IMG/VR virus record: IMGVR_UViG_3300027754_000065
Coordinates: 1-64,000 of that record
Strand: one strand, 5' to 3'
Length of the DNA stretch: 64,000 nt
Source of the DNA: a virus
The notes beneath the pieces are model-generated. The model did not search any database and was not told the DNA's origin. It saw only the letters and a program-made list of their open reading frames with translations. Positions 4,930-55,587 of the stretch are shown one piece after another. Position 1 is the stretch's first letter. Each line of letters opens with the position of its first letter. Position numbers and translations under genes: made by a program.

Positions 4930-5559
4930 ATGCGTTATCATCAATTATTAGTTGAAAAGGTTCTTAATCTACATACTCCTGAACAAAAAATGAAGTATGC
5001 GGATAAGATATGGGATATGCTTCAGCGTAGTTATAAAAAGATTGGCGGCTTTAAAAGCGCTAATAGTGCTGAAGAATTAGCAAATGATTTAGGTTATTGG
5101 AAAGTAGTTCGCCGTGGTGATCATATAACTGCATTAGGTGTTTATAAACAAGTATCTAATACGGATAATTTTAAAATGATTGCTAGTGCTACTGAAACAG
5201 AACTTAATCCTGAAGGTGAATATAAAGCCACTGCACAAGGATTAAAAGATTATAACATGCTCAAAAAAGATGACATTAAAACAAAAAGAGCATGGGCAGA
5301 AGTAAGCGGACCTGCTGAAAAATTAATGCTTAAAGCAGGCGCAAAACCAATTGACAATAAATATGCTGAGTTTTTAACTGGTAAAAAGATATTAGATTTA
5401 AATCCTGATGGATATCATTATACTAGATTAATTCAGGGCGAACCGCATGAAAAGATAATAGTTGGATTTGTCAAATTAAGTCCAAATGGTAAAGAAAAAT
5501 TATCTAATTTAGGCTTTGATTTAAAGCATCTTCCTGACAATATCGTATCCAAAATTTGA
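4930..5559 (+). CDS. Phage protein with capsid-targeting-like N-terminus
   Basis: 209 aa. The first residues (MRYHQLLVE) match the short amphipathic, L-x-E-ending peptide shared by eight proteins in this window and resembling T4 capsid-targeting sequences. The rest (KYADKIWDMLQRSYKKIGG, WKVVRRGDHITALGVYK, AEVSGPAEK) has the strand order of a GNAT-like acyltransferase fold, but no acetyl-CoA loop is obvious. Late promoter immediately upstream. Read as a late, possibly virion-packaged protein; enzymatic role uncertain. Confidence 0.7.
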   Translation: MRYHQLLVEKVLNLHTPEQKMKYADKIWDMLQRSYKKIGGFKSANSAEELANDLGYWKVVRRGDHITALGVYKQVSNTDNFKMIASATETELNPEGEYKATAQGLKDYNMLKKDDIKTKRAWAEVSGPAEKLMLKAGAKPIDNKYAEFLTGKKILDLNPDGYHYTRLIQGEPHEKIIVGFVKLSPNGKEKLSNLGFDLKHLPDNIVSKI

Positions 5560-5584
5560 CAAATATTCTATAGTTTGCTATACT
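5556..5584 (+). promoter_or_regulatory. Sigma70 promoter for the esterase gene
   Basis: TTGACA (5556-5561), 17-bp spacer, TATACT (5579-5584). The -35 overlaps the stop codon of the upstream gene. Confidence 0.8.
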
Positions 5585-5615
5585 ATAGTTCAGACAGTGA
5601 CTTTTGGGCGTCAAT

Positions 5616-6191
5616 ATGATAGTTTACTTACATGGTTTTGCGAGTTCAGGCACTAGTGATAAGGTCACCGCTCTCAGAAAACGGTTCGGTGACGATAAGG
5701 TAATCGCACCCGATCTGCCCTTTGACCCCGATCTAGTGGGTGAGTTGGTCGACGGTATTGTCTGTGACTTTATGAAATCCCGAGAACCAAACGAAAAATT
5801 GGTATTCGTTGGTACTAGTCTAGGAGCATTTTACGCAAATTATTTCGGTCACTTGTATGACAGTTGTGCTGTGTTAGTTAATCCTAGTTCTACCCCCAGC
5901 GAGACTCTTAAGGAGAAGTTAGGACCAAACAAAAACTATTATACTGGTGAAGAATTTCTTGTTTCTATAGCACATTTAGATAAACTAGATAGTATGCGGA
6001 AACATGTCCGTGAAATCTATTCCCCTAGTTTGGTGAGTTTGTTTGTCGCTAAAGATGATGAGGTCATCCCCCATGAATCTATGCTAGAAGGCTTTCCTTA
6101 CGCAACAACAACCATCTTGGAGAACGGTGGTCACAGGTTTACTGAGCATTGGGATCTAGTTCTAGATCGGGTAGAAAGTCTCTTAAAATAA
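5616..6191 (+). CDS. YqiA-like alpha/beta-hydrolase (esterase)
   Basis: 191 aa from the ATG at 5616; an upstream in-frame TTG at 5604 is less likely. Alpha/beta-hydrolase landmarks in order: oxyanion strand IVYLHGFASSG with the SDK following (typical of YqiA/UPF0227), PDLPFDP, nucleophile elbow GTSLGAFYA with Ser, acid in AKDDEVIP and His in NGGHRF, so the triad is complete. YqiA cleaves short acyl esters. In a phage it might remodel host lipids or surface esters (inference). Own sigma70 promoter, so early expression is expected. Confidence 0.8.
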   Translation: MIVYLHGFASSGTSDKVTALRKRFGDDKVIAPDLPFDPDLVGELVDGIVCDFMKSREPNEKLVFVGTSLGAFYANYFGHLYDSCAVLVNPSSTPSETLKEKLGPNKNYYTGEEFLVSIAHLDKLDSMRKHVREIYSPSLVSLFVAKDDEVIPHESMLEGFPYATTTILENGGHRFTEHWDLVLDRVESLLK

Positions 6192-6220
6192 TTGACAAAT
6201 ATGCAGGTGTCGTGTACAAT
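6192..6220 (+). promoter_or_regulatory. Sigma70 promoter for the second tRNA cluster
   Basis: TTGACA (6192-6197), 17 bp, TACAAT (6215-6220), about 43 bp before tRNA-Leu. Confidence 0.8.
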
Positions 6221-6262
6221 GTATACATACACTGAGAAATTAGAAGTTCTTTAAAAATTAAC

Positions 6263-6348
6263 GCCCGGGTGGTGAAATAGGTAGACACAAGAGACTTAAA
6301 ATCTCTCGCTCACAAGGCGTGCCGGTTCGAGTCCGGCCCCGGGCACCA
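6263..6348 (+). tRNA. tRNA-Leu (TAA)
   Basis: 86 nt. Acceptor GCCCGGG/CCCGGGC, anticodon stem AGAGA/TCTCT with loop CTTAAAA, long variable arm, T-loop TTCGAGT, CCA encoded. Confidence 0.96.
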
Positions 6349-6355
6349 AGTATAT

Positions 6356-6433
6356 GCCTCTGTAGCTCAATCGGTTAGTAGCAGCGGCCTCATAAGCCGT
6401 TGGTTGGGGGTTCAAGTCCCTCCGGAGGCACCA
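6356..6433 (+). tRNA. tRNA-Met or tRNA-Ile2 (CAT)
   Basis: 78 nt. Acceptor GCCTCTG pairs with CGGAGGC (one wobble), loop CTCATAA, T-loop TTCAAGT, CCA encoded. The D-arm is slightly enlarged. CAT could be elongator Met or lysidine-modified Ile. Confidence 0.88.
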
Positions 6434-6438
6434 AGATT

Positions 6439-6526
6439 GGAGAGTTGGTAGAGTGGTTAATACAACGGTTTGCTAAACCGTCGCTGAGAAATCGGTGCAT
6501 AGGTTCGAATCCTATACTCTCCGCCA
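6439..6526 (+). tRNA. tRNA-Ser (GCT)
   Basis: 88 nt. Acceptor GGAGAGT/ACTCTCC, anticodon stem ACGGT/ACCGT with loop TTGCTAA, long class II variable arm, CCA encoded. Confidence 0.95.
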
Positions 6527-6786
6527 AGACGTTCCGTCTAATCAACGGATACTCTGACCCAGAGGATATGAAGTACAGTGATATGTACGGGTGGTTCTGA
6601 AGAGTAATATCTTCACATGGTAACATGCGGTTTAACCTAACCGGCGCTGGCAATGCGATAACGATCCCTGTCGAGAGCGGGTGGAGGGCGTGTGTGATGG
6701 TGTGTGGTAAGAACTAATTGTTGTTCTGAGGTCCATATGCTTGATGCGCTATAATTACCGCCGAGGGATGCAGAGCACCTTATTAG
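6527..6786 (+). ncRNA. Gene-free 260-nt stretch with consecutive stem-loops
   Basis: Between two tRNA-Ser genes. Three hairpins follow each other: GAAGA/TCTTC (6599-6614), CATG-GTAA-CATG (6616-6627, GNRA-type loop) and CGGTT/AACCG (6628-6643). A further stem AGAAC/GTTCT lies downstream. No convincing ORF: the only in-frame peptide is about 10 codons (ATG at 6571). Possibly a small structured RNA or decayed tRNA genes. Confidence 0.3.
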
Positions 6787-6876
6787 GGAAGCGTGGCAGA
6801 GAGGCCGATTGCGTTAGTCTTGAAAACTAAAGGCCCTGAAAGGGGTCCGTGAGTTCGAATCTCACCGCTTCCACCA
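6787..6876 (+). tRNA. tRNA-Ser (TGA)
   Basis: 90 nt. Acceptor GGAAGCG/CGCTTCC, anticodon stem TTAGT/ACTAA with loop CTTGAAA, long variable arm, CCA encoded. Confidence 0.95.
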
Positions 6877-6881
6877 ACAGT

Positions 6882-6955
6882 GCGGGTGTAGTTCAATGGT
6901 AGAACGGCAGCCTTCCAAGCTGCATACGAGGGTTCGATTCCCTCTACCCGCTCCA
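6882..6955 (+). tRNA. tRNA-Gly (TCC)
   Basis: 74 nt. Acceptor GCGGGTG/TACCCGC with one wobble, stem GCAGC/GCTGC with loop CTTCCAA, T-loop TTCGATT, CCA encoded. Confidence 0.95.
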
Positions 6956-6964
6956 ATTATATTA

Positions 6965-7048
6965 GCCCCGGTGATGTAACGGTAGCCATGCTGGTCTTAG
7001 AAGCCAGTGCAGAAATGCGTGTCGGTTCGAGTCCGACCTGGGGCACCA
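6965..7048 (+). tRNA. tRNA-Leu (TAG)
   Basis: 84 nt. Acceptor GCCCCGG pairs with CTGGGGC (one wobble), stem CTGGT/GCCAG with loop CTTAGAA, variable arm present, CCA encoded. Confidence 0.93.
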
Positions 7049-7074
7049 AAATATATCTTTTATATCTACATATA

Positions 7075-7081
7075 ATAAATA
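7075..7081 (+). promoter_or_regulatory. Late-promoter motif ATAAATA for the 7087 gene
   Basis: Ends 5 nt before the ATG at 7087; no Shine-Dalgarno visible, so a near-leaderless transcript is predicted. Confidence 0.55.
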
Positions 7082-7086
7082 GCAAT

Positions 7087-7524
7087 ATGTTATACTTGAT
7101 TAAATCAGACCAAGACGAATTGTTTACTAAATTGGCTGAGGACCCTGTTCGCCCCAATATACCTCATTCTATAAGAATAGGTAACAATAGAGATATCTTT
7201 GTATTGAAAGATGAAAATAACATAGTAAAAGCAATTACTTGTGTTAGTTATCAAGACCAAATACCTACAACAGAAAGCGAATTGTTCAATCATGATAGCA
7301 ATCCTAACATGGCTATATTCTATACTATATGGAGTTATAAGCCAGGTGCTGGTAGAGATTTAATTTTAAATGCTGTTAGTTATATTAAATCCAATAAACC
7401 TCATATTAGTCGTTTTGTAACACTAAGTCCACCAACTGAAATGGCTCGCAGATTTCATTTAAAAAATGGAGCTAGTGTTTTCAGAAATAACACTGAAACT
7501 GTCAATTACGAATACCTAGCTTAA
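7087..7524 (+). CDS. Small phage protein, possible GNAT fold
   Basis: 145 aa from ATG 7087; an upstream in-frame start would run through tRNA-Leu. The strand-helix pattern (IFVLKDENNIVKAITCV, AIFYTIWSYKPGAGRDLI, then ARRFHLKNGA) resembles GNAT N-acetyltransferases, with the GAGRDL turn in place of the CoA loop and the FHLKNGA helix like the family's F-Y-x-x-x-G-F. Not identified beyond that. Confidence 0.6.
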   Translation: MLYLIKSDQDELFTKLAEDPVRPNIPHSIRIGNNRDIFVLKDENNIVKAITCVSYQDQIPTTESELFNHDSNPNMAIFYTIWSYKPGAGRDLILNAVSYIKSNKPHISRFVTLSPPTEMARRFHLKNGASVFRNNTETVNYEYLA

Positions 7525-7583
7525 TATTTTTTTCTGTATCTGTATTCTAAGTAAATACTGTACATTTTTAAAAAGGATATTAT

Positions 7584-7712
7584 ATGGCTAAGGCATCTGA
7601 GGGTACTACAAAATCGGTTGTTAAACGAACTAGTCAAGGTGGAAAGGTTAAGACTAGCACTCTAAATAAAACAGAAAAAAGAAGTTTTAAAAAATATAGA
7701 GGTCAAGGTTAA
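7584..7712 (+). CDS. Small basic protein (42 aa)
   Basis: Lys/Arg/Thr/Ser-rich peptide (starts MAKASEGTTKSVVKRT, ends KKYRGQG) with a good Shine-Dalgarno AAAAGGA 8 nt upstream. Too short for family recognition. The charge suggests nucleic-acid or ribosome contact. Confidence 0.6.
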   Translation: MAKASEGTTKSVVKRTSQGGKVKTSTLNKTEKRSFKKYRGQG

Positions 7713-7722
7713 AAGTAAAAAA

Positions 7723-7797
7723 GCCTCGTTAACTCAGTGGTAGAGTAGCGCCTTTACACGGCGAATGTCGGCAGTTCGACCCTGTCACGAGGCACCA
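7723..7797 (+). tRNA. tRNA-Val (TAC)
   Basis: 75 nt. Acceptor GCCTCGT/ACGAGGC, stem CGCC/GGCG with loop TTTACAC, CCA encoded. Confidence 0.95.
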
Positions 7798-7811
7798 AAT
7801 TAATAATAATT

Positions 7812-8480
7812 ATGAATATAGTATTTTGTTTTCCTGGAATGTCATTTAGTAGAACGTGGGTGACATGTTGGACTAATACCGTTACTTGGTTAAACAAAGA
7901 AGGTATAGCATTTAATGTTAGCACTACTTATACACCTGTAATTTATAATTGCCGTAATTGGTTATTAGGTGGAACAGGATATCCTCCTAAAGATTTCAAG
8001 CCATTTAATGGAAAAGTAAAATACGATTGGATTGTTTGGATTGATAGTGATAGCGTTTGGACACCTAAGGATTTAGAAAAACTAATTAGTAACCCCGAAC
8101 ATAAAATTGTAACTGGATTTTATATTCAACACAATAATAAAATATACGCACAGGCAGTTGAAGGCAAAGAAAAAAACACAATGAATTGGATGCCTAGGAA
8201 TGAGGTAGATGTTAATGGCGAGCGAATTGAATTATTAGCAACTGGCATGGGATTCATGGGTGTTCAAAAGGGTGTATTTGAATCATTGACATTCCCGTGG
8301 TTCAAACCTCTAGTATTTTCTGATAGTGAAAGAGAAACCTTTTTATCAGAAGATACAGGATTTTGTCATAGGGTAAAAAAATTAGGTTATACTATATGGG
8401 GAGATCCTACAATACAAATAGGACATGAAAAATCTTGGATATTAACAGGTGCTGACAGTAGTGGGCATAAACCTGCATAA
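7812..8480 (+). CDS. GT-A fold glycosyltransferase
   Basis: 222 aa. Rossmann-like start (MNIVFCFPGMSFS), a central WIVWIDSD carrying the metal-binding D-x-D (D78, D80), then LATGMGFMGVQKGVF and a C-terminal GHEK. This order is that of small GT-A transferases. The acceptor may be phage DNA, a capsid protein or a host glycan. Between tRNA-Val and the radical SAM gene, 8 nt from the latter. Confidence 0.75.
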   Translation: MNIVFCFPGMSFSRTWVTCWTNTVTWLNKEGIAFNVSTTYTPVIYNCRNWLLGGTGYPPKDFKPFNGKVKYDWIVWIDSDSVWTPKDLEKLISNPEHKIVTGFYIQHNNKIYAQAVEGKEKNTMNWMPRNEVDVNGERIELLATGMGFMGVQKGVFESLTFPWFKPLVFSDSERETFLSEDTGFCHRVKKLGYTIWGDPTIQIGHEKSWILTGADSSGHKPA

Positions 8481-8483
8481 ATA
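8477..8483 (+). promoter_or_regulatory. Late-promoter motif ATAAATA for the radical SAM gene
   Basis: Overlaps the end of the glycosyltransferase and stops 5 nt before ATG 8489. Confidence 0.55.
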
Positions 8484-8488
8484 GACTA

Positions 8489-9590: not shown

Positions 9591-9598
9591 AACATCAA

Positions 9599-10051: not shown

Positions 10052-10067
10052 AGCAAAAGGAAATTAT

Positions 10068-21572: not shown

Positions 21573-21581
21573 ACTATTTAT
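21573..21581 (-). promoter_or_regulatory. Late-promoter motif ATAAATAGT for the fibre operon
   Basis: 16 nt before the fibre 3 ATG with AAGGAT between; overlaps the last base of the erpA stop. Confidence 0.6.
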
Positions 21582-21904
21582 CATACACTAAAAGAACTCC
21601 CGCATCCGCAAGTAGTTGTAGCTTGAGGATTCGTTATAGAAAATCGTGATCCTTGTAAATCTTCTTTGTAATCTACTACTGCACCTTCTAAGTATTGTAA
21701 ACTCATACTGTCAACTAGTAGATTGGTTTTACCTACTTCAAAGGTAAAGTCATCTTCGTTTTGCTCTGAATCAAATGTAAATCCATAACTAAATCCACTG
21801 CATCCACCACCTTGTACATACATGCGTAATTTGATTGTTGGATCAGATTCTTCTAATATTAATTCGTTAATTTTTGTTGTTGCGTTTTCTGTAATTGTAA
21901 TCAT
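21581..21904 (-). CDS. erpA: ErpA/IscA-type iron-sulfur carrier
   Basis: 107 aa from the second ATG (21904), preceded by GGGGGA. Three conserved Cys: C35 in [12 protein letters not shown]99 and C101 in [10 protein letters not shown]. Residues such as [11 protein letters not shown] and GSRFSITNP closely follow E. coli ErpA, closer than to IscA or SufA. A-type carriers deliver Fe-S clusters to apoproteins; here possible clients are the phage's own radical SAM enzymes and ferredoxin (inference). ATGA overlap with the SOD gene indicates coupled translation. Confidence 0.92.
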
Positions 21905-22455
21905 AATGATTTCCCCCATCTTGTGTTAATCACATTCCAGTTGATAATCTTCCATTGTTCTTTTAAGTATTTTTTCTTATCACTGCCGTAATCTAAAATC
22001 CAAGCATGTTCCCACCAGTCAATTAACAATAATATATCGTTGCGTACCTGATGATTCGCAATCGTTTTAATCTTTCCATCAGTAGATAGATATATCCAAC
22101 CTGAACCCTGTATCTTCATGGCTTCAGTTTCAAACTCAGATTTCATATTATCATAGTCGCCAAAATGTTTATTGACGAATCCTAGCATAGGGCCGTTGGG
22201 GTTGTTATTGTTTCTTACTTCACGGAATTGTGGGAACAATGTATTATGCAGGAAAGCACCTGCATAGTTGAAATCTCTATCACCTTCTTTTTTGTTATAG
22301 CGTTCAGCGTAACCTTGCGCTAACTTACCATAATGAAGGTCTATAGTGGCTTTAGACAGCACAGGACTAACCTCGCTGTCTGTAAAATTCAACGGAATAA
22401 TTTCTATGTCTTGAGGTTTAGTTTTTTCCTCAAGTAATGTAATAATATCTCGCAT
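21901..22455 (-). CDS. Fe/Mn superoxide dismutase with capsid-targeting-like N-terminus
   Basis: 184 aa from ATG 22455. All four metal ligands are present: H41 (LHYGK), H70 (FLHNTLF), D146 and H150 (DWWEHAW). The GSGWIYL strand and the C-terminal [11 protein letters not shown] are typical. The second-shell His pair after GK in E. coli FeSOD (H30, H31) is replaced by Leu-Ala, so activity may be altered. An extra leader [10 protein letters not shown] precedes the SOD fold and carries an L-x-E site. The late promoter TATAAATA is 4 nt upstream. Removes superoxide if active; packaging in the virion is an inference. Confidence 0.85.
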
Positions 22456-23782: not shown

Positions 23783-24475
23783 TTACCATGCTCTACATGA
23801 CCAATATCTAGCTTTCCAACGTGGTCCAGGGTTTTCACAACGATGACGGGCTCTAAATGATTTTCTGCGTCCGGGTATATTCTTTTTAATACGCATGTTT
23901 TTGTCACCAAAGTTAACTTTGACAACATTACCCTTTGGACCCTTTACATAGACTTTAGACTTGGCTACATCACCCTGCATTGGTTTACCTAATGGAACTT
24001 CACGGCCCTGATATTTGGCCTCATCCATTTCATCTTCACCCATTTTAAATGATCCCGCACTAGAAGCATCCGACCCTGAACCTAGTACCATACCTTCTTG
24101 ATACATATCGTCATCATAGGCTTTTTGATCTGCCTGATCCGCATAATATGCTTCTGCATCATCGCTGTCTTGTGCGCGGTCCCATGCTTCTGCGTCATCT
24201 ACTGCATCATAGTAATCTTGATCACTATCATAACGATGTGGATTTGTAGATGGTCTGAAACGATTAGGAGCCTCACTTAATAGTTTTTTACTAGTAAGTA
24301 ATTTAAATGTTTCTTCATCGGCTTCAAGTACTATCCCGTCTTTTGTAAATCCGATTACTCCGGTTTCTATTACAAAGTCTTCGGATAATTCAATATCAAA
24401 ACTGTCATGAAGCTCAACATTGTCCTGCTCACTTAGTTCTTCTACAATGTTTAATAAATTTCTAAAGTCGCTCAT
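23783..24475 (-). CDS. Capsid-targeted-like protein with conserved Cys C-terminal module
   Basis: 230 aa. N-terminus MSDFRNLLNIVEELSE ends in L-S-E like T4 capsid-targeting peptides. The middle is acidic and Asp/Tyr/Ala-rich (DYYDAVDDAEAW, QDSDDAEAYYADQ), probably disordered. The last 60 residues, KVNFGDKNMRIKKNIPGRR then RHRCENPGPRWKARYWSC, form a basic module with two Cys that I recall at the C-terminus of several myophage proteins. TAATG-type junction with the HAD gene. Possible packaged DNA-binding protein. Confidence 0.65.
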   Translation of the reverse strand: MSDFRNLLNIVEELSEQDNVELHDSFDIELSEDFVIETGVIGFTKDGIVLEADEETFKLLTSKKLLSEAPNRFRPSTNPHRYDSDQDYYDAVDDAEAWDRAQDSDDAEAYYADQADQKAYDDDMYQEGMVLGSGSDASSAGSFKMGEDEMDEAKYQGREVPLGKPMQGDVAKSKVYVKGPKGNVVKVNFGDKNMRIKKNIPGRRKSFRARHRCENPGPRWKARYWSCRAW

Positions 24476-25101
24476 TATATTCTCCGCATGTTTTCGTTGG
24501 TTCTCTGATACTCTCCTGCTTTACCATCTAAACTCACACTCCAAGCGTAAAACTTAGTATCAGGGTATTCTTTTTTAAGTGTGACAAAACTATCTAAATT
24601 TGGAATAGAATCATCATACATAATCGCTTTGCTATAGTTACCGCTATCTAATAACTTTCTAATAATAATCTTTTTCTTTTCGTCAATCTTTATATTATCT
24701 TTATTATTTCCTGCACGGTAGACATGTACTTTATTCATATCTACCCCATATTTTCTAAATGTATCTAAAAACAATTCTTTATCATCAAAATCTGACCTAG
24801 CAGTTACCATAACAACTTTATTACCTGTAGCAATATCTTGTTTAAGTTGATCCATCATAGGAATAATTGGCTTAGCATTGTCAAAGAATTCTTTAGCATC
24901 AGTGAAATCTCCAAAATCAAACTTTTCACCGGGTTTCAATTTATAATGTGTAAACTCGTGGCTGTTTAGGCTACGAACTATTTTACCATCTTTGATAACA
25001 TGGACTTTAGTTTGGGTATGCACAAGAGTATCGTCAATATCAAATATTACTAATTTTGATACATCATCTACATATTCTTTTAATATTTCAATTATCTTCA
25101 T
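24475..25101 (-). CDS. HAD-superfamily phosphatase, capsid-targeting-like N-terminus
   Basis: 208 aa. HAD motif I LVIFDIDDTLVHT, motif II VVMVTARSDFDDK, Lys in KIDEKKK and motif III/IV MYDDSIPNLD. The HAD fold begins only after a leader MKIIEILKEY containing L-K-E. This layout resembles short polynucleotide or nucleotide phosphatases such as the T4 Pnkp phosphatase domain, but no kinase half is present. Substrate not deducible. Confidence 0.82.
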   Translation of the reverse strand: MKIIEILKEYVDDVSKLVIFDIDDTLVHTQTKVHVIKDGKIVRSLNSHEFTHYKLKPGEKFDFGDFTDAKEFFDNAKPIIPMMDQLKQDIATGNKVVMVTARSDFDDKELFLDTFRKYGVDMNKVHVYRAGNNKDNIKIDEKKKIIIRKLLDSGNYSKAIMYDDSIPNLDSFVTLKKEYPDTKFYAWSVSLDGKAGEYQRTNENMRRI

Positions 25102-26571: not shown

Positions 26572-26765
26572 AGAATAAAGTTTATTTGATCAGATTGGTC
26601 TACAAAATGAAATTTATATAAGCCAGGTTTTTCACCTGATGGTGATACCATATGCCAGCCCCATTTGTCTTTGCAATTCGTTTTACACCATTCTAATAGT
26701 GGATTTAAAGAACCATATGGTACAGTAATATCGGTTCTGAATGCATATTCAGTAACGGTTATCAT
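26559..26765 (-). CDS. Hypothetical protein, 68 aa
   Basis: Not recognised. Contains [18 protein letters not shown]; mixed alpha/beta. Overlaps both neighbours by 4-13 nt, so it belongs to the ferredoxin operon. Confidence 0.55.
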
Positions 26766-27088
26766 TCTTCAAGTAAATTAATTTTATTAGGCTTGTCTTT
26801 CCATTCTTCTGCATCTGGTGGAGGATCTTTTCGTTTAGTAATGCTAGGCCATTTTTCTGCAAGTCTTGTATTAAGGTCGTACCAAAACTTTACATTTTCT
26901 AAATTCTTATCAGTATCCTCTACAATTGCGGAAACAGGGCACTCGGGTATGCATACGCCACAGTCAATACATTCATCAGGATTGATTACAAGAAAATTAG
27001 GACCTTCGTAAAAACAATCTACAGGACAAACAGTAACACAATCTGTATGTTTGCATTTGATACAATTTTCAGTTACAAGGTGAGTCAT
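26762..27088 (-). CDS. fdxA: FdxA-type 7Fe ferredoxin
   Basis: 108 aa. Cys pattern C9, C12, C17, C21-P, C25, then C40-x2-C43-x2-C46-x3-C50-P, as in Azotobacter-type FdI with one 3Fe-4S and one 4Fe-4S cluster. The C-terminal extension ([24 protein letters not shown]) is that of betaproteobacterial FdxA and is intact. Low-potential electron carrier; might feed phage radical SAM enzymes or other reductases (inference). Confidence 0.93.
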
Positions 27089-31998: not shown

Positions 31999-32026
31999 AT
32001 TATACAGGAATTTTATTCTTTGTCAA
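31999..32026 (-). promoter_or_regulatory. Sigma70 promoter for clpP
   Basis: TTGACA (32026-32021), 16 bp, TATAAT (32004-31999). Overlaps the end of the 32023 gene. Confidence 0.85.
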
Positions 32027-33600
32027 CGTTTTTTACGCCCAACATCTCCTGATGGTTTAGGTTCTTTTGGCTCTCTTCTTTTTGGATTAACAATATCCAT
32101 TGATGATGTAGACAAATCGGATACCGTACCTATAACACCATCATCAGGTTCGACGCCTGCCCCTAGTTCATCAGGCTCTTCCAAATCAGTTTTAGGTGCT
32201 GTATTGGCTAATTTAAAACTGAATCCACCTTTAGTTGGATCAGTTCCTCCTGATTTAGATTCTAATGTAATTTTTCCTTCAAGTTTAGCAGGCCATTGTG
32301 TAGCAAAGCTCATTATTCTACTCTTAGGATCAAAGTCTGCGTATTGCTGAATGAAGTTCATATCTAAAATGGATAATACCACATCTTGGAATTCAGGAAT
32401 AGCTTGGCCTTCGTTTACTGCATTCATCACTGCTAATTTAACTGCATGAGTTAACTTTCCACCGTCGCTACTTGGTTTTTGAAATTTAATGTCATTAAAA
32501 AATATATCATAGCCTGGCATCTTACCTGGATAAGAATTAGGCCTAGATGGCTGCACATTTTTTTTAAAATCTTCGATGCTTTGTTTTACATCTTTTGTAA
32601 TTTTATTAACATCCCACGGTAACACTGATTTAAATTTCTGCGGGATAGATTCGGGTGCTACTTCATTTAATAAATTCATAGCAGCAAAGACGGAGCTAAT
32701 AGTTCTAGGTGATGGTAAAGATATTTTAGCGGGAACCTTTTTAGTGCCATTATCACATAAATCAATGAAACCTACTGCACCAAGATAATCAGGATTATTT
32801 CTAATTTCATCAGGTACCTTTAATCCACTTACACTTGGAGGAGCACCGCCACCTTGACCTTTACTTGAAATATTAATTTTGTGATTTGTTTTATCGTTAG
32901 AAATGCTGGCATAGCTATCGGCTATGTTAGTATTAGCTTTACCTGGAAAATTAATAATTAACTCAGATACATCACTTCCTAGCCATTCAGTAAAACCCTT
33001 CTTTCTAGGGAAACGGGAAGTACCCGATACTAGTGCCAACACACCTAAATACTCACCTGCGTAGTCAACAATACTATCTTTAATCTTGGAAGGAACATCT
33101 TTGGAGATAACTGGGTTCCCACCATTCATAATAGTTTCAGCCATTTCAATGACTAATCTTCCATAATCAGTAGATTGCAGCACACTGTTATTAATAATTG
33201 TTTCTCCTAATTGACTAGCAGGAATGTCTTTGTCAGTGATTTTAATCTGAGAAGGTTTTAATAAAGCTGATTCTTTACCAGTTTCTTCACCCTCTTCACC
33301 TGTTTTAGCCTGTCCTCCTAAATCAGAGGTTTTTAACAATTGACTTAATAGAATTTGCCTACCATCTTCTAATTTAATTTTAAGAGTACCTGAAAATTTG
33401 CCATTATCATATAATTGTTGGAAACGGTCTGCTTCGGAAGGGTCAGCAATCACCGATTCTTGATCAATAGTATAAAACGGCTGTTGATTAGCAATCATTG
33501 ATATGAATTTTTCAAATCTACCGGTCCGATTTATAATCTCCGATGCACTCAGAGTGCTAGCTTCAGATAGGGTTTGGATGAGGTTTAGTAAATCACGCAT
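32023..33600 (-). CDS. Large late protein with capsid-targeting-like N-terminus
   Basis: 525 aa, not assigned. N-terminus MRDLLNLIQTLSE-A fits a T4-type capsid-targeting peptide (L-S-E cut before Ala). A Ser-rich strand with GQGGGAPPS (about 250) and a following DLCDNGTKK recall restriction-nuclease-like cores, but no catalytic set is certain. The C-terminal 70 residues are Pro/Glu/Lys-rich and probably disordered. ATAAATACT sits 5 nt upstream. Candidate packaged internal protein. Confidence 0.65.
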   Translation of the reverse strand: MRDLLNLIQTLSEASTLSASEIINRTGRFEKFISMIANQQPFYTIDQESVIADPSEADRFQQLYDNGKFSGTLKIKLEDGRQILLSQLLKTSDLGGQAKTGEEGEETGKESALLKPSQIKITDKDIPASQLGETIINNSVLQSTDYGRLVIEMAETIMNGGNPVISKDVPSKIKDSIVDYAGEYLGVLALVSGTSRFPRKKGFTEWLGSDVSELIINFPGKANTNIADSYASISNDKTNHKINISSKGQGGGAPPSVSGLKVPDEIRNNPDYLGAVGFIDLCDNGTKKVPAKISLPSPRTISSVFAAMNLLNEVAPESIPQKFKSVLPWDVNKITKDVKQSIEDFKKNVQPSRPNSYPGKMPGYDIFFNDIKFQKPSSDGGKLTHAVKLAVMNAVNEGQAIPEFQDVVLSILDMNFIQQYADFDPKSRIMSFATQWPAKLEGKITLESKSGGTDPTKGGFSFKLANTAPKTDLEEPDELGAGVEPDDGVIGTVSDLSTSSMDIVNPKRREPKEPKPSGDVGRKKR

Positions 33601-34008: not shown

Positions 34009-34685
34009 AGATAGGGTTTGATTTAATCAGTGATTTAAATCTTTCATCGGAAGATAGTTTTAATTGGGAAGATAAGGCTACTAGTCTATATTGCGTAGTA
34101 GCCGGTAATGTAAGTTCTGACATGGGTGTTTTATTAAACACCCTTAAATACCTATCAAACTTCTATCAAGGTATATTTTATATACCTGGTGCACTAGAAT
34201 ATGAGAATGCAGAATCTATAGAAAAAAGAACACATGAAATAGCTAATATTTGTAATAAGATTACTAGTGTTGCGTTATTATACCATCATGTTGTGTTGAT
34301 TGATGGTATTGCTATATTGGGTGCTAATGGATGGCATACTGATTCGGTTACTGAATCAGTAGAGATCAACCGTTATAGTGATTTAGTATATCTAAAAAAT
34401 TCAATACAAAAGTTACAAAAACATTTGGATGTGAAAAAAATATTCGTGTTAACTAGTGCTGTGCCTAGTAATGATTTGTATTTTGGAGAAACCCCTAAAA
34501 ATCTTAAAGGTGTTCCTGAGTTAGTAATTACACTATTAGCAGATATGGAATCTAAGGTTTCACATTGGGGATTTGGTACATATGGAAAAATAGTTGACAC
34601 TACATTGAATAGTGTCAACTATTTTAATAATCCATATAATAATAGTAGCCCTTATTGGGCTAAAAGAATTGATATAGAAATTTAA
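34005..34685 (+). CDS. Degenerate metallophosphoesterase-like protein
   Basis: 226 aa. The strand order follows the calcineurin-like enzyme at 28479, but the metal ligands are changed: SDLNLS instead of SDLHLE, AGN for AGD, and PGALE for GNHE. No GHxH block is visible. The fold is probably kept while catalysis is lost, suggesting a binding or regulatory pseudoenzyme. Function unknown. Confidence 0.65.
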   Translation: MKIGFDLISDLNLSSEDSFNWEDKATSLYCVVAGNVSSDMGVLLNTLKYLSNFYQGIFYIPGALEYENAESIEKRTHEIANICNKITSVALLYHHVVLIDGIAILGANGWHTDSVTESVEINRYSDLVYLKNSIQKLQKHLDVKKIFVLTSAVPSNDLYFGETPKNLKGVPELVITLLADMESKVSHWGFGTYGKIVDTTLNSVNYFNNPYNNSSPYWAKRIDIEI

Positions 34686-34987
34686 GACTCAACCTCTACT
34701 TTGATTTGAAGAGGATAACCATGTGTTCTTGCATCTAGTGTTACTTCAATGCCCTTTTGCTCTGCGATTTCATAGGGTAAAATAGCAACTACCGCACTAC
34801 CATGTTCATGAATGCTATCTGTAATTGAAGCGGCAGATTCATTACTATAGTTAAAATAATCAACCAAAGAATTGATTACAAATTCCATAGATGTAACATC
34901 ATCATTCATGTAAATGATTTTGAAAAGGGGCGGTTCTTTAAGACCCAAGTTTGGTTTAATTTTGATTTTAGTATCGGCTTTGGACAT
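34682..34987 (-). CDS. clpS: ClpS adaptor
   Basis: 101 aa from ATG 34987. ClpS core PPLFKIIYMNDDVTSMEFVI with the N-degron pocket residues N28, D29, D30, M34 and H60 (IHEHG) conserved, and a C-terminal ARTHGYPLQI. ClpS brings N-end-rule substrates to ClpA, not ClpX, in E. coli. No ClpA is in this window, so it may recruit host ClpAP or redirect its substrate choice (inference). Convergent with the 34005 gene (4-nt overlap). Confidence 0.9.
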   Translation of the reverse strand: MSKADTKIKIKPNLGLKEPPLFKIIYMNDDVTSMEFVINSLVDYFNYSNESAASITDSIHEHGSAVVAILPYEIAEQKGIEVTLDARTHGYPLQIKVEVES

Positions 34988-35594: not shown

Positions 35595-35816
35595 TTAAAA
35601 AAGTTTCTTAGGAATTTCTTGACTATTTAAAAATCTTTTCCAACGTTTCTTTGCTTGGGCTTTAGCAACTTTTCTTTTTTCGGTTGGCTTATTATAAAAT
35701 CTACGGTCTTGAACTTCTTGGAGCAGGCCATCTTCGCTAATTTTCTTTTTAAATTTTCTTAGCGCCTTTTCTACATTACCGTCTTGTACTAATACTTTTC
35801 TGCCCTTTGAACTCAT
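35595..35816 (-). CDS. rpsU: Ribosomal protein bS21
   Basis: 73 aa. bS21 pattern: VEKALRKFKKKISEDGLLQEV, DRRFYNKPTEKRK, then AKAQAKKRWKRFL, matching bacterial ALRRFKR...FYEKPTTERKRAK. bS21 sits on the 30S platform next to the anti-Shine-Dalgarno and is exchangeable, so a phage copy could be fitted into host ribosomes. ATGA overlap with clpX, so translated with it. Confidence 0.92.
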   Translation of the reverse strand: MSSKGRKVLVQDGNVEKALRKFKKKISEDGLLQEVQDRRFYNKPTEKRKVAKAQAKKRWKRFLNSQEIPKKLF

Positions 35817-37012
35817 ACTAATGGTTGTGGATTAATCACCATGTCCTGACTAATATTTATCACGGTTATACCATGATCATGGTATTTGCGAGCATTATAC
35901 ATATGTGGCATTAAGCACCGTTCAATTTCAGTATGTAGACCACGAGCACCTGTTTTAAGTTCTAGGCAATTATCTACTATTTGCTCTAATGCTTCGGTAT
36001 CAAAATTCAAATCAATATTATCTAGTGAAAATAGATATTGGTATTGGTTTATATAGTTATTTTTGATTTCTGTTAATACCTTAAGTAGTTCATCCCTATC
36101 TAAATCAGTTAGAACAACTGATGTAGTAAATCTACCAATGAACTCAGGAATCATTCCAAACTTAGTTAAATCATCGGGCGAAACTAAATTTAGTTCAATA
36201 TCTTCATGGTTGGCAATAACATTAGCACCGAAACCAATTCTAGTGCCCTTGACCCTTGATTTAATAATATCATATAGGCCTACAAATGCACCACCTGAAA
36301 TGAATAAAATGTTTTTAGTATTAACTTCTAACATATCACCACCGGGATGTTTTCTACCACCACCTGCAGGAATACGACATATAGTACCCTCTACTAATTT
36401 AAGTAGTGCTTGTTGAACACCTTCCCCCGATACATCACGGGTAATGCTAGTAGATTCACCTTTACGGGCAATCTTATCAATTTCGTCAATGAATACAATA
36501 CCGCGTTCTGCTTTTTTAACATCACCGCCGGCTGAATTAACTAACATACTAATCATACTTTCAACATCATCACCAACGTAACCTGCTTCTGTTAATGATG
36601 TAGCATCAGCAACTACAAATGGTACATTCAAAAACTTTGCTACAGTTTTTGCTAGTAACGTTTTACCTGATCCAGTAGGACCAATTAGTAACACATTTCC
36701 CTTTTGGATTTCTAAATCTTCAGGAGGATGTGTAATTCGTTTAAAGTGATTTGCTATAGCAACACTGAGAATCATTTTAGCATCAGCTTGTCCTATGATA
36801 TGCTGATCCAAATACTCTTTAATTTGAATAGCATCATAGGTTTGATGTTCTATTTTTTCAGATTCAACTGAAGAATCATCATTGATTAGTTGATTACATA
36901 GTTCAATGCAATCACTGCAAATTGCAACCGATTCGCTGACAATTAACTTTTTTACAACTTCTTTGTGGCTTCCACAAAAAGTGCAGTGGGTGATTTTATT
37001 TTCTAAGGTCAT
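35813..37012 (-). CDS. clpX: ClpX ATPase
   Basis: 399 aa from ATG 37012 (MTLENK). N-terminal zinc domain C10, C13, C32, C35; Walker A GPTGSGKT (111-118); pore loop GYVG (144-147); Walker B FIDE (174-177); RKH loop (220-222); and the ClpP-docking IGF loop (259-261). All key elements are present, so it should unfold substrates and dock ClpP. Slightly shorter at the C-terminus than E. coli ClpX (424). Confidence 0.96.
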   Translation of the reverse strand: MTLENKITHCTFCGSHKEVVKKLIVSESVAICSDCIELCNQLINDDSSVESEKIEHQTYDAIQIKEYLDQHIIGQADAKMILSVAIANHFKRITHPPEDLEIQKGNVLLIGPTGSGKTLLAKTVAKFLNVPFVVADATSLTEAGYVGDDVESMISMLVNSAGGDVKKAERGIVFIDEIDKIARKGESTSITRDVSGEGVQQALLKLVEGTICRIPAGGGRKHPGGDMLEVNTKNILFISGGAFVGLYDIIKSRVKGTRIGFGANVIANHEDIELNLVSPDDLTKFGMIPEFIGRFTTSVVLTDLDRDELLKVLTEIKNNYINQYQYLFSLDNIDLNFDTEALEQIVDNCLELKTGARGLHTEIERCLMPHMYNARKYHDHGITVINISQDMVINPQPLV

Positions 37013-40193: not shown

Positions 40194-40589
40194 TTAAATT
40201 CCTTTTAATGCTTTTAACAATGCCCGAGCAACTACTCGGTCTTTTTCTTTCTCTTCTTCAGGAAGTTGTGCATAACTCTGTTGTGCCAACTTATACCGTT
40301 TCAATTTCTTTTCATCGGGTGTAGGAGTGTCTAGATCCAACTCACCGTTGTAATCTGCCATGGCAGTAATATTCCAACCATCGTGAATAGCATCGGCAAT
40401 AACATCAACATCGGTAGCACCTTGTTGGATAAGTTTCAGTGCCGCTTTTGCTGATTCTAAATTAGCGAGCCATCCAAAGTTCTTGCCAGGAGTACTTCGT
40501 CCATAATGATAAACATCATCAAGTGCTTTATCACTAATGGTTGCTAATTGAATAAGGTCGAGTGATTCTGATAATTCGCTAATTTTCAT
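40194..40589 (-). CDS. RyR-domain-like protein with capsid-targeting-like start
   Basis: 131 aa. Starts MKISELSE, matching the L-x-E leader class. C-terminal half AIHDGWNITAMADYNGELD then YAQLPEEEKEKDRVVARALL matches the RyR repeat signature (H-x-x-W ... LPEEEKEKDR) found in bacterial and phage proteins of unknown function. Transcribed behind a sigma70-like promoter, so its expression class is ambiguous. Confidence 0.65.
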   Translation of the reverse strand: MKISELSESLDLIQLATISDKALDDVYHYGRSTPGKNFGWLANLESAKAALKLIQQGATDVDVIADAIHDGWNITAMADYNGELDLDTPTPDEKKLKRYKLAQQSYAQLPEEEKEKDRVVARALLKALKGI

Positions 40590-51084: not shown

Positions 51085-51090
51085 GCCTTT

Positions 51091-51522
51091 TTACGCTACC
51101 TCGCTACGTCCGTTGCCCAAATCTTTACTTCTAATGTTACGCATATCTGCCATACCTCTCATGTCTGGATCGGCTTGTTGTTGTTCATAGACTTCTAGTG
51201 CAATATTTCGTGCTACTGTTTGAAACCATCTATCTATAATCTCACTATCTTTATCATTTTCCTTAATTTTATAACCAGCCTTTATAAGATTTATAATGAA
51301 TTTATCATTCCAATCTAGTTCAAAACTACCATTACCAATATTGTTTGGATCTAGTTCAATACTAATGATACCAACATAAGGTTCACCATTTTTAGTTGCC
51401 AACTCTTTGGGAGTAAGTTTAACTTCTTCCTTAGGAGCACGAGGCTTAGGTTCTTTCTTAACTGGTTCTTGAACTTGTGGTTCGGGTTGTTTCTGAAATA
51501 ATTTCTTTAATTTATCAAGCAT
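51091..51522 (-). CDS. Conserved T4-like phage protein, 143 aa
   Basis: Lys/Pro/Glu-rich linker (EPVKKEPKPRAPKEEVK), then LTPKELATKNGEPYVGIISIELDPNNIGNG-type core in two parts and WFQTVARNIALEVYEQQ. Matches a family I recall in T4-like cyanophages, function unknown. ATGA-like overlap with the UV endonuclease gene. Confidence 0.7.
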   Translation of the reverse strand: MLDKLKKLFQKQPEPQVQEPVKKEPKPRAPKEEVKLTPKELATKNGEPYVGIISIELDPNNIGNGSFELDWNDKFIINLIKAGYKIKENDKDSEIIDRWFQTVARNIALEVYEQQQADPDMRGMADMRNIRSKDLGNGRSEVA

Positions 51523-52546: not shown

Positions 52547-52578
52547 GTTAAAAGTCCAAAGTGATAAATAGTCTATGT

Positions 52579-52607
52579 AGTGTAACACCGTTGCACAATA
52601 AAGTCAA
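52579..52607 (-). promoter_or_regulatory. Sigma70 promoter for uvsE
   Basis: TTGACT (52607-52602), 17 bp, TACACT (52584-52579). Confidence 0.72.
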
Positions 52608-52627
52608 CTATTTACGGAAAAATTATC

Positions 52628-54229
52628 ATGAATATTAAAGAATTATTTGAGGGAGTTGAACCAGAATTACCAGGTGCTCCTGAAGGTATCCAAATAATGA
52701 CCCCTCAGCAATTTATTGCTAAATCCGCACAAGGTGAGGAACCTGAACCCGAACAGGAAGTAGATGAAGATTTCAAGATGAAATCTGATTTTAGTAAAGA
52801 AACCGATGATGCTGTAGCAGACTTTTTAAATAAAGGTGGAAAGATTACACAATTACCGCCAAATCGTGTAAGAGTAAAACCTGGTCAAAGTTTAGCCAGT
52901 AAGCACATTGGTAGTAGAAGCGAAACCGGAAGAATAATAGGTAAAGATAGAAAAGTTTACGGAAATAAACCCGTAGTTAATGTGTCGGAAAGCAAGATGG
53001 CTGAGTTAGACATGGACCTTGATGATCCTGAATTATCTGATCGAGAATTTGAAAAAATATATGGCATGTCTAGAAGAGAAGCTAGAGAAGAATTTTCACA
53101 AACCAATAAATGGGATTTTCCTGATGTTAGAGATCCTAACAAAAAACTACACGAACAAGGTGTGGCGGAAGCAACAGCACTACCTGCTAGCACCCGTGAA
53201 TTAAAAGGTCAAGAGTTAACAGATTATCTAGACCGTATTCGTAATCAAGAAAAGAAGAAAACAGACAAATATAATTTACCTTATGTCCATCGTAGTTCAG
53301 TAGTTGGATACTATAATGCTGACGGTAAAAAATATAATACTGACGCTATTAAAGCAGGGTTAAAGGAAAGACCAAAATCACTTCTTAAAAAGAATGAGAA
53401 GATGAAGCATAGTGATGGAGCACAAGAACAATTTTTTAACATTGGATTTGCTGCTCTAGTTGGTATCGCACTAGATGAAAATACAAATGAGTTAATTGTT
53501 GTTAATACATGTCCAGGTGCTGGTAGTTGTAAAGTAGATTGCTTTGCTATGAAGGGCGGTAAAGTTCAATTCGCTGGTCCGTGGTTAAGCGATGGTCGTA
53601 TACTTACATATCTACTAAATCATCCTGATGAGTTCTTTGAACAACTAACACAAGAAATTAGTAAAGAAGAAGCAAAGGGTAAAAAAGGTGGTTATTCAGT
53701 AAGTATTCGTTGGCATGATGCTGGAGACTTCTTTAGCCCTGAGTATATGGACATGGCATTTGACCTTGCAAACTCATTACCTGATGTTAAGTTTTATGCT
53801 TATACTAAAGTAGCAAAGGCTGCAATGGCTAGTAAGCCTAGCAACTTTATTATTAATTGGAGTGAAGGCGCAAGTACTAGCCAAGAAAAACAAATTAAGA
53901 GAAATGATCCAAACTTAGACACAACTAAGAATAGTCGTATCGTTCCTAGTAGTTTGTTTTATGACCTATTAGTTAAGGATTCTAAAAAGAATTTAGTTAA
54001 AGGACCTGAAGGTCAATGGCAAGTAATACCTGATGAATTACCTGAACTAAAACAGCGCCTCGCCGATAAGTATGGTATAAGCAAAAATAGTATTCTAAGT
54101 TATGATGAATGGAATACTAAGGGTAAAAATAATAAATCCATGAAGTGGAATGTTATTGTTGCCCCCGGGGAGCCTGATTTAACGGCAAATGACCCTGGTG
54201 TATTAGGCACTCTATTATTGAAGCATTAA
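52628..54229 (+). CDS. Gp88-like protein with capsid-targeting-like N-terminus
   Basis: 533 aa. Leader MNIKELFE-G fits L-x-E cleavage before Gly. A second candidate site VAE-A lies at 179-182 (HEQGVAEA), after a polar linker. The remainder matches the Gp88 family: CPGAGSCKVDCFAMKGG, WHDAGDFFSPEYMDMAFDLA and KFYAYTK, with a Cys cluster suggesting metal binding. Gp88 function is unknown. Divergent from uvsE, TAATG overlap with the next gene. Confidence 0.75.
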   Translation: MNIKELFEGVEPELPGAPEGIQIMTPQQFIAKSAQGEEPEPEQEVDEDFKMKSDFSKETDDAVADFLNKGGKITQLPPNRVRVKPGQSLASKHIGSRSETGRIIGKDRKVYGNKPVVNVSESKMAELDMDLDDPELSDREFEKIYGMSRREAREEFSQTNKWDFPDVRDPNKKLHEQGVAEATALPASTRELKGQELTDYLDRIRNQEKKKTDKYNLPYVHRSSVVGYYNADGKKYNTDAIKAGLKERPKSLLKKNEKMKHSDGAQEQFFNIGFAALVGIALDENTNELIVVNTCPGAGSCKVDCFAMKGGKVQFAGPWLSDGRILTYLLNHPDEFFEQLTQEISKEEAKGKKGGYSVSIRWHDAGDFFSPEYMDMAFDLANSLPDVKFYAYTKVAKAAMASKPSNFIINWSEGASTSQEKQIKRNDPNLDTTKNSRIVPSSLFYDLLVKDSKKNLVKGPEGQWQVIPDELPELKQRLADKYGISKNSILSYDEWNTKGKNNKSMKWNVIVAPGEPDLTANDPGVLGTLLLKH

Positions 54230-55587
54230 TGCGTATTAAAGAGTTATTAGAATCAGTTCAAGTACCCACCTATCTATATAAGTGGGTAGAAGGAAATCAA
54301 TTTCAAAAGTATATTGATTCTAAAAAATTACCAGTGAAAAGAGGTTATGCTCACTATATAGAATCAGAAGGGAAAATGATACCCGGTAATAGTTTTACTG
54401 ATAAAGAACATATTAGTAGATGGACAGGAGATACATTAATTAGAATTAATGCTAGTAAAATATCTAATAAAATATATCCAATACCAGGACATAAAACTTT
54501 TATGCGAACAAAGGGTATGACTAGTGCTAACTATGATCCTAATGCGTGGAAGTATGAATCTGATGATATTGATGAGTATTGGATAGCAGGACCATTAGAT
54601 TTATCAAGTGCAGAGATTGTCAAGCCATCAGAAAAAAATATAACAGAAAATACAGACAATAAACCAACTATTGGCATCAATGTCAGAAGTGATGGCAATA
54701 CTGACTATGCTAGTTTAATTGTTGACGGCAAAAAGAAATACGAATCTAGAAAAACTGACAGTCTTAGACCATATGTTGGTAGAACGGTTGGTATTGTTAG
54801 AACTGGTAATGGCCCTGCAGTTGCGATTGGTCAAGTAACTATTGGGGAACCAATAGTAGTAGATGCTGAAAAGTTTGATAAACTTAGAAAACAACATCTA
54901 GTTCCACCGAGAAGTCTGTTTGATATCGGAGCCACCGATACCAAATACTTGTATCCAATGATTAACCCAGTTAGGTGGGATGAAGAGAAATTAATAAAGA
55001 ATAAAGGTATCGTTGCTAGAAAAATTGAAGAGCAAGAATTAACCGAGTTTGACTATAATAAACATGTCAACATGCTTAATGATTATATGAATAAATTAGG
55101 CTATAGTTATATCGGTCATGGTACAGACGCACATGTTTTTGCTAAAGAAGAAGGTCCAGTAATTAAAGTATTAATACCTGAGAATGGCGATATCTCTACC
55201 GCTAAAAATCCATTCTTAGCATTTCTTAATTATTGCGAGAAAAATGCTAATAACCCACACTTACCTAAGTTTATAGAAACTACTAAACAACCAATTCAAT
55301 TGGGAGTTGAAAAGTTTGATCAGGTAGTTATGGAACGATTAGAAGAATTAGATCCTGACTATGATGAAATGATTATAGATATGATGTATAGTATTGACGA
55401 AGGCAGTCCATTAGATCCGCAATATCGTCAATATACTAATTTCTATAAAACACTTAAATCAGTTACAGCAACCGGTACTAAATTAGGATTTAGTAATGAT
55501 ATTATCGCACATGATTATAGCAATGTAATGCAGAGAGATGATACTCTAGTAATTGCTGATCCTTGGGTCAGTGCAGGTTTAAAGTAA
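54229..55587 (+). CDS. Multidomain protein: leader, unknown domain, ASCH-like, kinase-like
   Basis: 452 aa. Leader MRIKELLE-S. Residues 12-140 (LYKWVEGNQFQKYI, GNSFTDKEHISRW, DEYWIAGPLDL) are unassigned, with an ADP-ribosyltransferase-like feel. Residues about 145-245 (YASLIVDGKKKYESRK, GRTVGIVRTG) look ASCH-like. Residues 290-452 are kinase-like: glycine loop and Lys (GHGTDAHVFAKE, VIKVL), MERLEEL hinge, HDYSNVM catalytic loop and ADPW in place of DFG. A packaged host-modifying protein analogous in layout to T4 Alt is the working idea. Confidence 0.6.
   Translation: MRIKELLESVQVPTYLYKWVEGNQFQKYIDSKKLPVKRGYAHYIESEGKMIPGNSFTDKEHISRWTGDTLIRINASKISNKIYPIPGHKTFMRTKGMTSANYDPNAWKYESDDIDEYWIAGPLDLSSAEIVKPSEKNITENTDNKPTIGINVRSDGNTDYASLIVDGKKKYESRKTDSLRPYVGRTVGIVRTGNGPAVAIGQVTIGEPIVVDAEKFDKLRKQHLVPPRSLFDIGATDTKYLYPMINPVRWDEEKLIKNKGIVARKIEEQELTEFDYNKHVNMLNDYMNKLGYSYIGHGTDAHVFAKEEGPVIKVLIPENGDISTAKNPFLAFLNYCEKNANNPHLPKFIETTKQPIQLGVEKFDQVVMERLEELDPDYDEMIIDMMYSIDEGSPLDPQYRQYTNFYKTLKSVTATGTKLGFSNDIIAHDYSNVMQRDDTLVIADPWVSAGLK

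Follow-up and report, generated by a model that had tools for sequence, protein, structure and literature searches.

The window analysed here, bases 1–64,000 of an 86,814-base virus record (IMGVR_UViG_3300027754_000065), holds eight genes whose proteins begin with similar short leaders, and our preferred explanation, to which we assign a probability of roughly 0.78, is that these leaders are capsid-targeting propeptides and that the genes encode cargo polyproteins cut by an S77 protease and built by in-frame exchange of modules. The leaders would draw unrelated cargo into the prohead core of a T4-type jumbo phage, in which a gp21-type S77 prohead protease would cut after a hydrophobic residue, any residue and glutamate (hydrophobic-x-E). 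The larger cargo genes would place several domains behind one leader and separate them by additional hydrophobic-x-E sites; one targeting event would thus load a whole polyprotein, which would be cut apart within the head and enter the host along with the DNA. Cargo genes would be assembled by in-frame module exchange, and a widespread junction, CAAGGTGTGGCGGAAG (encoding QGVAE before G or A), would be a DNA joint and a peptide cut site at once. The genomes themselves hold the leaders, genes for the protease and capsid protein, an enrichment of sites at domain borders, a junction conserved at the DNA level, and breakpoints at that junction. From these features we infer packaging, cleavage, injection and the mode of module recombination in this phage.

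The same phage is represented by a 335,035-base record, IMGVR_UViG_3300028394_002328 (G001, hereafter the twin), in which 110 of the 120 proteins of the shorter record are identical. The DNA polymerase of the shorter record (65545–68259) has 42–50% identity to those of the jumbo phages Phosso, Atu_ph07, 121Q and RaK2. Leader counts cover the twin, three relatives (G002, G004 and G005) and 109 further loci, the 525-kb G003 and the last 247 bases of G004 being left out; for the domain-border and junction tests another 120 loci were added to this set.

All eight N-termini listed in the initial annotation are ATG starts of open frames, encoding 131–533 aa. The bodies behind them are unrelated, as had been claimed, with family matches that differ (Fe/Mn superoxide dismutase (SOD), HAD/polynucleotide-kinase-like, GP88 and gp0.7-type kinase) or that are weak or missing; the SOD, HAD and kinase-like proteins foreseen from the letters alone are among them. 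The motif search over the whole proteome that had been suggested as a check is weak in its loose form and far above shuffles in a tight form (K, R or N at residue 2, a hydrophobic pair, and E at residue 8–10). This tight pattern matched 8 of 120 genes in the 86.8-kb record, compared with a mean of 0.37 and a maximum of 3 in 500 shuffles, and it matched 3 of 447 windows set at internal Met residues. Of these genes, six are inside the window and two outside; the tight pattern does not catch the longer leaders at 24475 and 33600. Further matches were present in the twin (10/341), G005 (7/189), G004 (14/468) and G002 (10/404), versus 0.6–1.2 in shuffles, and beyond the window a cluster at record positions 70254–77926 includes five leader-like starts (MITESFVGE, MRALEFLNE, MRLNEFVVDE, MANTLRKFQYILE and MKINQIILE).

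The twin and its relatives supply 2,595 distinct N-termini, in which E occupies the leader end 184 times and A, the next most frequent residue there, 88 times. A wider pattern found at least one match in 44 of 876 body clusters (G001, G002, G004, G005 and the 109 loci), of which some must be chance matches. Commonest is MRAxEF[ILV]xE, present on 101 distinct proteins and encoded by 101 different 27-mers with free variation of GAA/GAG, TTT/TTC and the alanine codons; the leader is therefore held at the protein level. An N-terminal leader of about 8–20 residues that ends in L/I-x-E and is common to unrelated proteins, as in T4-type capsid targeting, is thus present. The SOD of the window has about 14 residues more than superoxide dismutases in the PDB (query residue 18 aligns to residue 4 of 1ues). 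Its homologues, the twin included, align from residue 1 in 17 of 17 rows with a leader-like E at residue 9–10, which is kept even where the letters differ, for example in MFNFIKYVVE. Pseudomonas jumbo phages ranked best among its relatives in named phages (39%).

No S77 protease match was found on the 86.8-kb record. The twin encodes a gp21-type S77 prohead protease beside a gp23 capsid gene, and its head genes follow a T4-like order; Pfam identifies the protease and the capsid protein, and we would assign portal, gp67-like, gp68-like and scaffold genes from gene order and size. An S77 match was obtained in 5 of 11 records searched (the twin and four other large ones), and these five also had gp23 above cut-off; in a second set of 12 junction-bearing records both were found in the same six and neither in the other six. 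Together, S77 and gp23 co-occur in 11 of 23 searched records that have a leader-protein relative or a junction, and neither is found in the other 12. The capsid propeptide of the twin reads MSKVLLE-SRWDETKEALLE-GLKG...VILE-NTKKQLLAE-STAG and contains several stretches of leader-end form (VLLE-S, ALLE-G, VILE-N and LLAE-S). Downstream of the propeptide region the protein aligns with T4 gp23, and LLAE-S, which reads YLKE-N in G002, is in the general area of the T4 cut ...FLTE-A (after residue 65) but about 12 alignment columns from it.

In T4, gp21 cuts by the rule L/I-X-E, and residues 4 and 7 of the ten-residue IPIII leader account for most of the targeting, residues 8 and 10 for the processing (PMC9026906). 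Applied as a control to 63 coding sequences (CDS) of one T4 stretch, the leader pattern matched five (ipII, ipIII, gp21, vs.6 and e.6), of which vs.6 and e.6 are presumably false positives, and missed ipI; ipII and ipIII match through MKTYQEFIAE. The suggestion of a T4-like targeting peptide ending in L/I-x-E is supported by these two matches and by the adjacent S77 and gp23 genes of the twin. T4-like capsid targeting of varied cargo, with trimming by the prohead protease, is a well-supported prediction for this phage.

The pattern was compared with virion data for other phages. With the pattern fixed beforehand, we scored 218 of the 219 CDS of cyanophage S-CREM2 (gp85, which spans two stretches, was left out) against the virion proteome given in Table 3 of PMC10665884. 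Five of six leader proteins were detected, compared with 46 of 212 others (Fisher p=0.003): the SAM hydrolase gp6 (MKDFDSFLEE), gp13 (MKDLHSFLTE), the kinase gp14 (MKRFDAFLTE), gp17 and the cytidylyltransferase gp154 (MKNFSSFLTE). The detection of gp13 and of gp17 depends on a single peptide each, and gp17 (MKQIIIHE) may match the pattern by chance. After removal of the listed tail, neck and portal genes and of proteins below 100 aa, the counts were 3/3 versus 25/104 (p=0.017). These leaders argue that the regulatory proteins in the S-CREM2 virion are cargo and not contaminants. The detected protein gp160 (7 peptides) is a relative of a module in the 74288 protein of our record and is without a leader by the pattern. 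Homology of the S-CREM2 kinase gp14 with the kinase of the window was considered and rejected, as a comparison of the two gave no useful match. The Cas9-annotated gp12 (OR473000, 7704–10313), also detected, carries RFASFMAE-A ending at residue 25, outside the pattern, and may be capsid cargo too.

In a single stretch of S-SCSM1 (62 CDS, two cut CDS left out), the sole leader protein (MKSFLQFLKE) is an NMNAT labelled in the record as a virion protein; the other seven virion-labelled proteins of that stretch have no leader. The relative of the SOD in the Pseudomonas jumbo phage PA5oct begins MNDSIKKYISIAE-AASS (...ISIAE-A), and its record bears the note 'ESI-MS/MS', which we take to mean virion proteomics.

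The sites are not confined to N-termini. For the junction test, up to 80 residues following each of 336 leaders were matched to homologous stretches in other proteins, and cases preceded by a full leader were removed. A [LIVMFA]-x-E site lay within four residues of the border in 196 of 273 distinct junctions, belonging to 41 families, compared with 12–26% at twelve shifted control positions (mean 0.17). This enrichment is specific to E, since D, K, Q, N, S, T, G, A and R reached at most 1.11-fold of the control. It persisted after exclusion of GVAE-type junctions (176/252) and also of the two largest families (69/100). The commonest offset of the site from the border was exactly zero (83/176), and a majority of sites was found in 27 of 36 families versus 5 of 36 at a shifted control position. 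The 40194–40589 protein of the window has two internal homologues, and the site is present in both. A protease motif at domain borders beyond background, as proposed for a polyprotein cut by gp21, is thus what we found. The internal sites keep V/L/I-x-E (P3–P1) and not the E-F common in the front half of the leader, which fits T4 mutant data that separate targeting from processing (PMC9026906). Internal sites would then be the cutting half without the targeting half, and the distribution suggests that several leader proteins are cargo polyproteins cut at domain borders. Both these sites and the junction conserved at the DNA level go beyond the initial annotation, which had missed them.

The 54229 protein of the window can be divided in this way. 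N-I-T-E (residue 140) precedes its middle part, presumably ASCH-like, and E-L-T-E (residue 273) its kinase-like part. The same parts occur separately in relatives: the ASCH-like part lies directly behind the leader in L057 (MRATEFIVE-NSIPTIGINV), the 272-residue protein L037 stops before the kinase, and the kinase stands alone behind leaders in, for example, L018, L025, L064 and L069 (26–31% identity). In an AlphaFold2 model, residues 274–449 have ten-residue means of the predicted local distance difference test (pLDDT) of 68–95, and the predicted kinase fold begins right after L-T-E. At least two disparate domains in one polypeptide, the mark of a polyvalent protein, were found in the 54229 protein and in L311, where an amidoligase match was above cut-off and nucleotidyltransferase and ParB matches were below it. 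Pfam was scanned for 7 of 151 non-contained site-bearing frames, and PHROGs for four loci.

A further indication comes from twin-arginine translocation (Tat) signals, which must lie near the N-terminus of a protein. Among 4,174 distinct proteins, the combination of RRx[FLM][LIVM] with a hydrophobic run behind it occurs eight times, and in every case [LIVMFAT]xE ends 2–3 residues before the motif, a form found at 5.3% of background positions. Three are located behind an N-terminal leader (for example MRANEFINE-DIN-RRDLLKG), one near the start without a full leader (MKIDEVT-RRDFLK), and four are internal, at residues 78, 291, 295 and 1112. The signals at 291 and 295 are homologous and akin to the three leader cases, and we therefore count three independent internal cases. 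Because a Tat signal needs a position near an N-terminus, a cut of the chain at these sites would account for the internal ones.

The QGVAE junction differs from the leaders in being conserved at the DNA level. Among 41 copies found by protein likeness, valine is encoded by GTG in 36 and alanine by GCG in 40, codons otherwise used at 16% and 8%. Leader codons vary and junction codons do not, and leaders and junctions therefore seem to be kept by different forces. The 13-base core gave 64 matches, whose 41 distinct contexts have no long flanking sequence in common, and a scan of virus contigs with 18 bases found at least 120 stretches. Among the matches listed for the 15-mer AAGGTGTGGCGGAAG, the QGVAE frame was the longest of the three on its strand in 240 of 240 copies; 209 of these 240 lay inside called genes, all in the QGVAE frame, and 108 of the 112 spacings between junctions below 1,500 bases were multiples of three. 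Over all 151 frames, the modules between junctions have a median length of 76.5 residues, and 534 modules fell into 375 clusters. The largest cluster of internal modules has 11 members (9 distinct sequences), with 10 different left and 9 different right neighbours. This module is predicted to form a small beta-beta-beta-beta-alpha domain (mean pLDDT 73.3, core 80–85) with both ends floppy (below 50).

Breakpoints of homology coincide with the junction. In the GP88 gene, the downstream part is homologous to its four nearest non-identical relatives (L034–L037) from window position 53156–53168 onwards, and L035 has about 369 extra bases exactly at this junction. From 745 homologous pairs we retained 95 alignments in register at the site and dropped the others. 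Only the right side was shared in 50 of the 95, with homology starting within 6 bases of the core in 39; only the left side was shared in 43, with homology ending within 6 bases of the core in 39; and both sides were shared in 2. The simplest reading would be repeated recombination at the junction. A host-borne element was considered and rejected, as a prokaryote collection gave 26 single 18-mer matches in scattered taxa, with the QGVAEG frame the longest in 9 of 26. In L270, L240 and L180 another repeated peptide, resembling LNEFAPG, is often located just behind the junction and may be a further joint.

Several explanations compete with this scheme. Chance or composition as the source of the leader likeness would fit the loose pattern, which lies near background, but it was rejected on the counts for the tight pattern (8 versus 0.37) and the 101 distinct proteins with MRAxEF[ILV]xE; we give it practically no weight. 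It is also conceivable that the leaders are cut off and the multi-domain proteins, as happens with some polyvalent proteins of other phages, are delivered without being split, the internal x-E sites being relics of domain fusion. Large multi-domain injected proteins are known, some of them packaged uncut according to PMC5512222, and domains are shuffled in the proteins studied here. A relic, however, should retain the full leader, and what is kept is P3–P1 without the E-F half; moreover, the enrichment is for E alone and the internal Tat-type signals lie directly behind sites. Of the alternatives we consider this the most serious one, although unlikely.

Less probable still is that the QGVAE junction is a DNA element only, a mobile or recombination-prone repeat that is in frame by chance and has no proteolytic role. 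Protein selection alone does not explain the conserved synonymous positions (GTG and GCG), but the single frame and orientation of all copies listed speaks against this reading, the gp21 rule accommodates V-A-E before G or A, and junctions of other DNA sequence carry the same x-E. The cutting could also be done by embedded zincin-type metallopeptidases and not by the prohead protease. There are HExxH stretches in the 70254–70829 protein of the record (FHELVH) and in L311 (AHELTH), and the leader protein L063 has a metallo-protease match (phrog_87); on the other hand, the seven long polyproteins scanned had no Pfam peptidase (E 0.01), and the junction motif is the leader-end motif and resembles the capsid propeptide. 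We regard such processing as very improbable.

Other observations weigh against the cargo polyprotein explanation itself. The generic L/I-x-E rule (among the first 17 residues) is barely above chance, with 25 of 120 genes against a shuffled mean of 15.7 (sd 3.2). The junctions without a site number 77 of 273, one family having it in 2 of 13, and for the HAD family of the window it was present in 0 of 1 internal homologue. When the hydrophobic run is not required, a site precedes just 17 of the 61 RRx[FLM][LIVM] motifs. The alignment does not fix the position of the capsid cut. Mean pLDDT over the whole 54229 model is 55.4 and poor outside the kinase, and the top Foldseek matches, protein kinases, have E just above 0.001, with none at or below 0.001. 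Of the 31 detected S-CREM2 proteins outside the structural list, 26 lack the pattern, and so a leader is not required for detection; the S-CREM2 authors considered the detected regulatory proteins possible contaminants (PMC10665884). No virion proteomics or cleavage data were found for this phage. Finally, the claim that several of the eight genes carry late promoters held up in part: a TATAAATA-like box lies within 45 nt of four of them, but TATAAATAC is not enriched in the window (45 seen versus 49 expected with at most one mismatch). In the twin, the box precedes 4 of 12 leader genes versus 29 of 339 others (p=0.019), and of the 6 head genes only 1 has a late-like box. Late promoters thus make a weak argument, and we dropped them as strong support.

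The predicted system resembles the T4 capsid targeting sequence (CTS) of IPI, IPII, IPIII and Alt with gp21 in its short leader ending in L/I-x-E, its unrelated cargo and an S77 gene beside gp23. It differs in having more cargo families (SOD, kinase, GP88, HAD), chains with internal sites and a DNA-conserved junction; the T4 cargo treated in PMC9026906 is cut at its ends and not between domains, whereas here internal sites lie at domain borders. In the giant phages SPN3US and phiKZ many head proteins are likewise cut after x-x-E, with several sites per propeptide, but as far as PMC5694885 describes them the propeptides are mostly long, the cargo is different, and the sites lie in propeptides and not between swapped domains. 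In print, we found no closer concept than that of the polyvalent protein (Iyer et al. 2017, PMC5512222), in which disparate domains share one polypeptide that is thought to be injected and has been likened to polyproteins. Embedded zincin peptidases were proposed there as the cutter, and T4-type ADP-ribosyltransferases (ARTs) are said in that source not to be in genuine polyvalent proteins. Unlike polyvalent proteins, the proteins described here have T4-type leader and prohead-protease motifs at the start and at domain borders.

Mobile regulatory cassettes shuffle T4-type genomes through short intergenic repeats at the joints of exchanged modules. The likeness lies in these short repeats; here, in contrast, the joint lies within coding sequence and its translation is a likely protease site. 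In the open-licence papers searched we found no report of the junction, for which 'GVAEG' gave one unrelated paper, or of such leaders in jumbo phages. In its widest form the proposal is that T4-type jumbo phages run in-frame cargo cassettes at a 15–18-base junction, CAAGGTGTGGCGGAAGGC, that the QGVAE-before-G joint is a protease site, and that each virion carries cut-up, fast-evolving injected proteins, some of which may be exported by Tat to the host periplasm; we put this at slightly better than even odds. If it is true, the injected cargo of jumbo phages could be read from leader and junction in many uncultured genomes, and the function of the internal proteins of large phages would open to systematic test. 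There would also be a bacteriophage counterpart to viral polyproteins, with a capsid protease cutting inside the capsid, and a single short sequence would serve DNA recombination and protein processing alike.

Table 1. Leaders, sites and domains located in the 64,000-base window (leader functions and cut sites are predictions)
Feature	Position	Strand	Remarks
Leader MRYHQLLVE	4930..4956	+	Gene 4930-5559, 209 aa, no family match; late-like box CATAAATAC upstream
Leader MRDIITLLE	22429..22455	-	Fe/Mn superoxide dismutase gene 21901-22455
Long leader MSDFRNLLNIVEELSE	24428..24475	-	Gene 23783-24475, 230 aa, phrog_7595 at C-terminus; outside tight pattern
Leader MKIIEILKE	25075..25101	-	HAD/polynucleotide-kinase-like gene 24475-25101, phrog_415 E 7e-13
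Long leader MRDLLNLIQTLSE	33562..33600	-	Gene 32023-33600, 525 aa; outside tight pattern
Leader MKISELSE	40566..40589	-	Gene 40194-40589, RyR-domain match below cut-off
Leader MNIKELFE	52628..52651	+	GP88 multi-module gene 52628-54229, PF17338 E 3e-26
Junction CAAGGTGTGGCGGAAG, encoding Q-G-V-A-E before A	53156..53171	+	Single window copy; between variable front and GP88 domain
GP88 domain, residues 252-421	53381..53890	+	Pfam match
Leader MRIKELLE	54229..54252	+	Three-part gene 54229-55587
Internal site I-T-E, residues 138-140	54640..54648	+	Before ASCH-like part of 54229 protein
Internal site L-T-E, residues 271-273	55039..55047	+	Before kinase-like part of 54229 protein
Protein-kinase-like domain, residues 274-449	55048..55575	+	Confident part of model; alone behind leader in relatives

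For the gene 32023–33600, the gene caller favoured a start at 33498 instead of 33600. An Fe-S assembly protein (PF01521) adjoins the SOD gene directly (window 21581–22455). Phage ClpS and ClpX-like proteins are encoded at 34682–34987 and 35813–37012, and in PA5oct ClpS likewise neighbours the SOD gene. Within the cluster of leader-like starts beyond the window there is a Dps/ferritin-like protein without a leader (PF00210, phrog_3636; L002:3804–4244, record 73804–74244). The window also encodes a ferredoxin-like protein at 26762–27088 (matching Fer4 and DUF3470), and GTP cyclohydrolase I, PTPS and radical-SAM proteins at 57745–60785, a group which we take to resemble the 7-deazaguanine pathway. 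Two adjacent genes at 3074–4869 have near-identical protein starts (MNNIYL... and GGDFLCSQISKD), apparently as a result of tandem duplication.

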